This document shows, one piece after another, positions 46,684 through 49,471 of a DNA stretch of 64,000 nt. The DNA is from Actinomycetota bacterium (GTDB lineage: Bacteria > Actinomycetota > Actinomycetes > Actinomycetales > Microbacteriaceae), in NCBI GenBank assembly GCA_947449765.1, contig CANFSP010000004.1:62001-126000 (forward strand), read 5' to 3'. Made by a program: the position numbers and the translations under genes. A model generated the notes under the pieces. It made no database searches. It was given only the letters and a program-made list of their open reading frames with translations, and was not told the origin of the DNA. The number at the start of each line of letters is the position of its first letter. Position 1 is the stretch's first letter.

Positions 46684-48453
<1,770 letters not shown>

Positions 48454-48485
48454 TCACGGGTGGGTGGTCAAGCCAACGGAGATCA

Positions 48486-48522
48486 CCGCGACGAGAGGGC
48501 TTAGAGATGAACCTCGTCGCGG
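48486..48522 (-). promoter_or_regulatory. leuA leader hairpin (attenuation element)
   Basis: On the leuA mRNA CCGCGACGAG (48522-48513) pairs perfectly with CTCGTCGCGG (48495-48486), a 10-bp stem with a 17-nt loop. The first arm is codons 11-13 of the leader peptide. No U run follows, so this is not a plain terminator. The second arm also contains TCTCGT (48496-48491), which can pair with ACGAGA (48452-48447) at the leuA ribosome site. The two pairings exclude each other. Confidence 0.6.
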
Positions 48523-48551
48523 CAACTAAGAAGCAGCAGACCAAAAGACAT
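48501..48551 (-). CDS. leuL: Leucine leader peptide for leuA attenuation
   Basis: A 16-codon open frame, MSFGLLLLSCRDEVHL, ends with TAA 59 nt before the leuA ATG. Codons 5-8 are four consecutive leucines (CTG CTG CTT CTT). Its ATG has a TAGCGT -10 box exactly 6 nt upstream, so it would be the first codon of a leaderless mRNA and be translated on every transcript. Ribosome stalling at the Leu run during leucine shortage would choose between the downstream RNA pairings. Leucine leader peptides before leuA are known in Actinobacteria such as Corynebacterium. This frame is too short for usual gene finders. Confidence 0.82.
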   Translation of the reverse strand: MSFGLLLLSCRDEVHL

Positions 48552-48557
48552 ACTTAT

Positions 48558-48563
48558 ACGCTA
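48558..48563 (-). promoter_or_regulatory. -10 element of the leuL-leuA transcript
   Basis: TAGCGT on the minus strand, 6 nt before the leuL ATG. The same hexamer serves the GDPD gene at 1287. Confidence 0.6.
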
Positions 48564-48577
48564 CCACCGCGCGGAGG

Positions 48578-49471
48578 CTAAAAACCTAGGCGCTGAAGTT
48601 GTTTTGGGTCGCGTTGCCAGTCTTTGGCGACCTTCACCCGGATATTCAAATACACCTGAGAACCCAACAACGCCTCAATGGATGAACGCGACGTCGCGCC
48701 GATCTCTTTGAGCCTGGCACCACCCTTACCAATAATGATGGCCTTTTGACTGTCTCGTTCCACGAAGACATTGGCGTAAATGTCGATGATGTCTTTATCC
48801 TCTCGCGGACTCATGTCGTCAATCGTCACCGCCAGTGAGTGTGGAAGCTCGTCGTGAACTCCTTCCAAAATTGACTCGCGGATAAGTTCGGACACGCGCT
48901 TTTCCATATCGCCATCAGTATTCTCACCCTCGAGATACAGGGCTTGACCGGCCGGAAGCAATTCGGTCAATTCACGTGCCAAAGTCTCAAGATTCTCGCC
49001 GTTCGAGGCAGACACGGGGATGACAAGCGCCCACTCGCGCAGCCCTGAGACGGTAAGTAACTGTTGCGCGATTTGTTCTGAACTCGCCACATCAGTTTTC
49101 GTGACAATGGCTACCTTGAGCGCTCGGGGATACTTGTCCAACTCCGCATTAATGAAAGCGTCGCCTGGCCCAACCGGCTCATCAGCCGGAAAGCACATCC
49201 CGATGACGTCAACGTCACTCAGCGTCGACTGTACAAGTGCGTTCAACCGTTCTCCGAGAAGCGTGCGCGGTCTATGCACGCCGGGAGTGTCAACCAGAAT
49301 GAGTTGGCCCTCGTCTCGATTGATGATTCCGCGAATCGCATGACGCGTGGTTTGCGGCTTCGACGAGGTGATGGCAATTTTTTCACCCACGAGAGCGTTC
49401 GTGAGCGTCGACTTGCCAACATTCGGTCTACCGACGAACGAGACGAACCCGGATCGCATCATGTTAGACAT
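48578..49471 (-). CDS. era: GTPase Era
   Basis: 297 aa. An essential GTPase for 30S ribosome maturation. GTPase motifs are GRPNVGKST (G1), DTPGVHRPR (G3) and TKTD (G4), with a C-terminal KH RNA-binding domain (KAIIIGKGGARLKEIG). It overlaps the end of the CBS-domain gene by 8 nt; ATGs at codons 4 and 5 are alternative starts. It is the last gene of the hit-phoH-ybeY-hlyC-era run. Confidence 0.95.
   Translation of the reverse strand: MSNMMRSGFVSFVGRPNVGKSTLTNALVGEKIAITSSKPQTTRHAIRGIINRDEGQLILVDTPGVHRPRTLLGERLNALVQSTLSDVDVIGMCFPADEPVGPGDAFINAELDKYPRALKVAIVTKTDVASSEQIAQQLLTVSGLREWALVIPVSASNGENLETLARELTELLPAGQALYLEGENTDGDMEKRVSELIRESILEGVHDELPHSLAVTIDDMSPREDKDIIDIYANVFVERDSQKAIIIGKGGARLKEIGATSRSSIEALLGSQVYLNIRVKVAKDWQRDPKQLQRLGF

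Follow-up and report, generated by a model that had tools for sequence, protein, structure and literature searches.

A leucine leader between era and leuA

The window, by which we mean the whole 64-kb stretch of DNA that was analysed, carries on its minus strand the genes era and leuA and, between them, a short open reading frame with a run of leucine codons, a promoter box and several segments predicted to pair in the RNA. The features are the following, with positions counted from the first letter of the window.

48578..49471, minus strand: era, the upstream gene, which ends 26 nt before the leader ATG (ORF; NCBIfam GTPase Era)
48558..48566, minus strand: extended -10 box TGG-TAGCGT of the leader (TANNNT in 66 of 68 family regions, preceded by TGn in 60 of these 66)
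48501..48551, minus strand: leader ORF MSFGLLLLSCRDEVHL, including its stop (all 68 family members have an equivalent ORF)
48528..48539, minus strand: Leu codons 5-8 (CTG CTG CTT CTT), predicted partner of the leuA start region (MFE fold; duplex of -12.8 kcal/mol)
48513..48522, minus strand: 5' arm of the hairpin, CCGCGACGAG (9 or more of the 10 pairs kept in each of 112 elements)
48498..48503, minus strand: strand 1 of the pseudoknot, UAAGCC, in the hairpin loop and containing the UAA stop (6-bp match with strand 2, one pair being G-U)
48486..48495, minus strand: 3' arm of the hairpin, CTCGTCGCGG (cognate arms above swapped arms in 5000 of 5000 permutations)
48469..48474, minus strand: strand 2 of the pseudoknot, GGCUUG (pairing with UAAGCC; class-wide swap test 0/5000)
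48436..48450, minus strand: Shine-Dalgarno (SD)-like and start region of leuA, predicted partner of the Leu codons (duplex; contact scan over 68 sequences)
46684..48441, minus strand: leuA, 2-isopropylmalate synthase (ORF; NCBIfam NF002991/TIGR00970)

The initial annotation had read the short frame as a leucine leader peptide of leuA with its own leaderless promoter. The frame is as it was described: 16 codons from the ATG at 48551 to the TAA at 48503-48501, with Leu at codons 5-8; the leuA ATG, at 48441, follows the stop after a gap of 59 nt. No other ORF of 10-30 codons with an ATG or GTG start and four consecutive Leu was found on either strand of the window.

The gene leuA is present in 288 of the 299 genomes of the window's family. 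We collected 68 family upstream regions, that of the window plus 67 more, selected via leuA and not via the leader: 31 came from best-hit loci and 37 were hand-picked, mostly one per genus, among the leuA matches listed. A copy of the window (L001) and a locus without the leuA N-terminus (L004) had been left out. Every one of the 68 regions has an in-frame leader with an ATG or GTG start, with three consecutive Leu codons in 19 and four in 49, and the run is followed by an SCRDE-type motif in 67. The final Leu codon of the run is CTT in all 68; this codon accounts for 8% of the Leu codons over 30 leuA genes and for 10 of the 45 in the leuA of the window, where it is thus not rare. Conservation of the Leu run and of the stem in close relatives had been proposed as a check on the leader, and both are kept, as are its position and the promoter geometry, which supports the original reading. 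In a related genus, the leuA protein matches of L006, L007, L008, L009 and L018 contain one or two internal stop codons.

The promoter box was also found where it had been placed, with TAGCGT at 48563-48558, 6 nt ahead of the leader ATG. Under a fixed rule (TANNNT 5-8 nt before an in-frame start), 66 of the 68 family regions have such a box, at a distance of 6 nt in 57 and of 7 nt in 9; over 200 rounds of shuffling the number averaged 5.3 and never exceeded 9 of 68. When start and box were chosen jointly, TANNNT lay at 6 nt in 59 regions, at 7 nt in 7 and at 9 nt in 2 (L028 and L058). The laxer class set has the box 5-8 nt upstream in 24 of 44 sequences (shuffles: mean 7.2, maximum 12). None of the 66 family members with a box has an SD-like motif ahead of the leader. 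A sigma-70 scan at the locus gave no -35 consensus and no promoter pair, as expected of an extended -10 box without a -35 element. Judged by this geometry, the transcript would start at the leader start codon.

One sequence in the spacer deserves mention. The spacer ATAAGT (48552-48557) forms, with the T that precedes it, the hexamer TATAAG, which ends 1 nt before the leader ATG and which, if it served as a -10 box, would place the transcription start inside the leader. This hexamer is absent among the family relatives displayed, where the conserved box is of the TAGCCT type and lies 6-7 nt upstream.

The element extends well beyond the family. With an E-value limit of 0.01, a covariance model (R1) built from 64 family sequences finds a match in 280 of the 296 class genomes, and a leuA-like N-terminus, recognized by a loose motif, starts downstream in 42 of the 44 class loci that we opened. 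From alignment A1 had been removed L005 and L016, identical to other rows over the aligned stretch, and L049 and L053, which have long insertions. In the window's own genome the model finds this one place below E 0.4, the next match being its antisense at E 0.47. In a sample of the phylum it matches 15 of 119 genomes, and 10 of the 15 belong to the class. The matches outside the class are weak (G612, G628, G650, G673 and G678; E from 8e-6 to 7e-4). Rfam (release 15) has no match at the element by gathering score, and within 48400-48620 even a limit of E 5 brings up none; 8 related loci gave no match either, so a curated model could be built from these alignments.

Predicted pairings within the leader transcript

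The 10-bp hairpin described earlier is present, with a 5' arm formed by the last base of codon 10 and by codons 11-13. The pair count in the 112 elements was obtained by picking the 3' arm as the best match. Among the 86 elements of alignment A2 (88 before removal of two short antisense rows; 85 distinct) there are 29 types of arm pair, and swapped arms never did as well as cognate ones (0/5000). The sequence of the hairpin is strongly conserved, and most changes in it are compensated at the RNA level.

Covariation also argues for the pseudoknot. The pairing of its strands is formed elsewhere by different sequences, such as ACCGGC with GCCGGU, GCUGGC with GCCAGC, and others. At least 5 bp are formed in 72 of the 85 distinct elements, a count to be read with the 67% of swapped pairs that reach this level, and the mean score over the 85 exceeds that of 5000 of 5000 permutations. 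A different scoring gave 1/2000 in the class set. Within the family alone, where the strands hardly vary, the test is not significant (916/2000).

All these swap tests were run with the kinship among the sequences left in. A control pair was not significant (4847/5000), nor was the pairing of the Leu run with the 3' element (253/2000). Low values were found for two pairs about which we had no hypothesis, the hairpin 3' arm with the segment before leuA (0/2000) and the loop with that same segment (37/2000). Because the former was unplanned and passed, relatedness must inflate the tests to some degree; this pair could also be a further alternative pairing. A helix suggested by RNAalifold and included in R1 (P1, pairing CGGUC ahead of the Leu run with GGCUG further on) found no support in the swap tests and is not claimed; these gave 1576/2000 in the family, 213/2000 in the class and 151/2000 over all sequences, and 663/5000 in a second run. 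We found no terminator-like site in 48300-48700, and the stem has no T-run: it is the stem of a pseudoknot, not a terminator.

A further pairing is predicted outside the hairpin. In the MFE fold of the window's sequence, computed like all our folds with pseudoknots ignored, the Leu codons pair with the leuA start region. Over the 68 family members, the mean expected number of pairs with a 12-nt SD window is 4.81 for the Leu codons, 1.14 for the 3' element and 0.61 for the codons before the run, and lower than 0.61 for the remaining segments. The same three figures are 3.1, 1.56 and 0.82 in 36 class sequences, these being the members of the set of 44 whose leuA start is known and lies 85-125 nt from the core; the masking scan of the class used the same 36. 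In a scan of the 68 sequences with blocks of 12 nt masked in turn, the release of the SD peaked at the Leu codons (+0.177); for blocks that began at the last Leu codon or beyond it, the change lay between -0.021 and +0.005. The peak in the class set was +0.089. Swap tests of the Leu run with the segment before leuA gave 1/2000 in the family, a weak 86/2000 in the class and 0/2000 over all sequences. The choice among synonymous Leu codons improves the pairing only slightly, being better than the mean of usage-matched random runs in 43 of 68 regions.

A ribosome on the run would be expected to disturb this contact. With a 28-nt footprint on its four positions, the predicted mean openness of the SD over the 68 sequences is 0.554, 0.517, 0.459 and 0.434; it is 0.366 without a ribosome and 0.368 with the ribosome five codons past the run. 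A footprint on the first Leu codon raises the openness above the ribosome-free value in 59 of 68. In the window itself, where the leuA SD is weak, the openness is 0.44 without a ribosome, 0.55, 0.61, 0.35 and 0.35 on the four Leu codons, and 0.56 and 0.52 once the ribosome is four and five codons past the run. As these values are uneven, it is the average over the family that indicates the direction of the switch.

Sister elements before leuC, leuS and leuB

Some genomes have more than one element of this type. From 40 genomes chosen for having at least two R1 matches we fetched 40 secondary regions, and tblastn placed 19 of them before leuA, 13 before leuB, 4 before leuC and 1 before leuS, with no leu gene in 3. 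With a fifth leuC case, L080, a second LEU-type element precedes leuC in L080, L108, L109, L110 and L113, which represent three genera of the family. The elements before leuB are L116, L121, L123, L124, L127, L128, L131, L137, L138, L140, L142, L143 and L145, and the one before leuS is L134 (29 bits; E 3.6e-5 in its genome). The best NCBIfam matches of 10 proteins agree with leuC (4), leuB (5) and leuS (1); the curated cut-off was reached by 5 of the 10, the other five proteins being cut by the end of the region. L177 and L181-L187 were screened by tblastn only. The regions without a leu gene are L112, L115 and L130; by eye, L112 and L130 resemble coding DNA and are probably false matches, and the leader of L115 resembles those of leuB. 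The window's genome has the leuA copy of the element only.

The leaders before leuB differ from the others in their codons. Val or Ile occurs within the four codons before the conserved motif in 10 of 10 leuB leaders and in 2 of 23 leaders of leuA, leuA paralogues and leuC (Fisher p 7e-7, uncorrected for kinship); examples before leuB are MRSVFVLIDCRGEA and MTQRVVILIRRGEFR, where they stand beside Leu. This count covers 10 of the 13 leuB loci; the other three (L121, L127 and L131) were seen by eye to have Val/Ile too, and the leuS leader of L134 stands outside it. Both kinds of leader occur side by side in seven genomes (L117/L116, L122/L123, L125/L124, L129/L128, L136/L137, L139/L138 and L144/L143), a contrast that constitutes comparative evidence that the codons are read. 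In 9 of the 10 stretches examined, leuB is followed by ilvE, which was not found in L189. IlvE serves all three branched-chain amino acids, so the codons of the leuB leaders follow the product of the operon. The codon content of the sister leaders suggests that the element works by being translated. The start of leuB lies roughly 230-400 nt beyond the element, and the SD pairing of the leuA type is therefore not simply transferable to it.

Interpretation and relation to known systems

The feature in the window is almost certainly the leuA leader of the LEU element. This element was described before leuA in most Actinobacteria, with a leader, a pseudoknot and a stem between Leu codons and SD (Seliverstov et al. 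2005; PMC1262725), and all these traits recur here, upstream of an actinobacterial leuA, the last of them as a prediction. A LEU-type leader of an already described kind is thus real and well conserved at this locus, and the earlier statement that leuA leader peptides are known in Actinobacteria agrees with published accounts of the same leader in other members of the phylum (PMC1262725, PMC8079986). No literature match was found for a leuA leader in Microbacteriaceae. The text of 2005 is silent on a leaderless promoter, and it left the mechanism open while preferring a binding protein; mutants of S. coelicolor (Craster 1999, as cited there) are given in it as inconsistent with classical attenuation. 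It places the element at leuA and at one transposase gene, does not contain elements before leuB, leuC or leuS, and classes the leaders of leuS as ordinary attenuators (PMC1262725). None of the literature matches listed concerns sister elements before leuB or leuC or with ilvE. The elements that we found before leuC, leuS and leuB are apparently new, and it is in these re-coded sisters that the added interest of the locus lies.

Other systems resemble the leader in part. The polycysteine leaderless ORFs of mycobacteria, reportedly the subject of Canestrari 2020, would by that title alone share with it the leaderless start and a run of codons for the pathway product, cysteine there and leucine here. 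LeuL1 of Streptomyces lividans leuA (MRFGLLLLSCRGEGL), which in the available excerpt is reported as leaderless and without a typical terminator, resembles MSFGLLLLSCRDEVHL; its start was mapped by RNA-seq, whereas that of the window's leader is deduced by comparison (PMC8079986). Excerpts of further papers speak of leaders or uORFs ahead of leuA in Corynebacterium and Mycobacterium (PMC4046766, PMC5784534, PMC3890552, PMC4974804). According to these extracts, Corynebacterium has a short Leu-run ORF ahead of leuA, as in the window, and Mycobacterium abscessus a ribosome-protected uORF; the peptide given for Corynebacterium diphtheriae, MNRANLLLLRRGGSQA, is unlike that of the window outside the Leu run, and no start can be assigned to it (PMC4046766, PMC5784534, PMC4974804). 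The excerpted main text of PMC4633059 does not contain leuA. The ilvB leaders of Corynebacterium are likewise short ORFs rich in branched-chain codons, but the passages available describe a terminator and an antiterminator (PMC10272879), neither of which was found here. A classical attenuator would have a T-run terminator hairpin after the leader, and none showed up in 48300-48700.

We propose that the element acts as a translational switch, in which a ribosome paused on the Leu codons opens leuA, and we give this reading a probability of about 0.6. Transcription from the extended -10 promoter would begin at the leader ATG or directly beside it, and a ribosome would begin on the leaderless mini-ORF and read its four Leu codons. 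Free of ribosomes, these codons would fold back on the SD and start region of leuA and keep it closed, with the hairpin and pseudoknot as a compact spacer in between. A shortage of charged tRNA-Leu would make the ribosome pause on the Leu codons and mask them, so that the leuA start opens; with ample leucine, the ribosome would reach the stop in the hairpin loop and leave, so that the start closes. Control would be exerted on translation, without a terminator. The comparison of sequences supports the ORF, the promoter geometry, the covariation of hairpin and pseudoknot, and the complementarity between Leu codons and SD; from these we infer the pause of the ribosome, the direction of the switch and the absence of a role for termination.

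Transcription might instead be attenuated without an intrinsic terminator, the position of the ribosome governing the access of Rho or a pause of RNA polymerase, with transcripts ending before leuA when leucine is plentiful. Such attenuation was used to explain the terminator-less leaders of actinobacterial cys operons (PMC1262725), and among actinobacterial leaders those of ilvB and trp are known to attenuate with terminators. We nevertheless think it unlikely here, because the region holds no terminator-like site and because this mechanism has no need of the direct contact predicted between the Leu codons and the leuA SD. More doubtful still is that the element is the site of a regulatory protein, for which an ML1624-type helicase was proposed, and that the leader codons matter as RNA only. 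Phylogenetic co-occurrence was the ground for preferring this explanation (PMC1262725), and a hairpin so conserved in sequence, with its changes largely compensated in the RNA, would suit a protein. Yet the codons track the operon, with Val/Ile in all the tabulated leuB leaders and in few of the others, and with both kinds present in seven genomes; moreover, the start codon and the promoter box hold their register in the family.

The conserved C-terminal residues after the run raise the question of whether they, rather than a lack of tRNA-Leu, stall the ribosome. Conservation of the pattern [CR]R[DG][EG] reaches far beyond the family, in keeping with an arrest peptide of the SCRDE type. The codons of SCRDE are also an arm of the hairpin, and paired changes in this arm lead to different residues (AGC in place of GAC or GGC in L038 and L139, TGC in L141), so that RNA pairing suffices to account for their conservation, and we regard an arrest peptide as highly improbable. 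That the ORF arose by chance and has no function is a negligible prospect: among 2000 mononucleotide shuffles of the 250-nt stretch ahead of leuA, 11 do produce a comparable ORF with four consecutive Leu, but the occurrence of the leader throughout the family sample and in nearly all genomes of the class effectively refutes this explanation.

The translational switch invites a wider reading, to which we give even odds. The LEU element may be a re-codable chassis, made of the hairpin-pseudoknot and a short ORF and placed before leuA, leuA paralogues, leuC, leuS and leuB(-ilvE), with sensor codons tuned to the product of the operon, and the Leu codons of leuA may double as sensor and anti-Shine-Dalgarno sequence. 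If so, the sensor codons would be Leu for leuA and leuC, and Val, Ile and Leu for leuB-ilvE, and the dual role of those of leuA would explain the paradoxical results obtained with codon mutants. The pairing between Leu codons and the leuA start would amount to a simple terminator-free switch that a few reporter constructs can test.

Finally, the stretch between the element and leuB has a feature of its own. Five of the small ORFs seen there gave no Pfam or NCBIfam match at E up to 0.1, and a search of the window's genome, which by its nature shows little, found none. Read by eye, these ORFs are conserved and about 20-41 aa long, MSEEAQKARQALQESMDLREQGHSDD being an example; the ORF is complete in L124, L137, L138, L140, L142, L143 and L145, and partially in view in L116 and L128.
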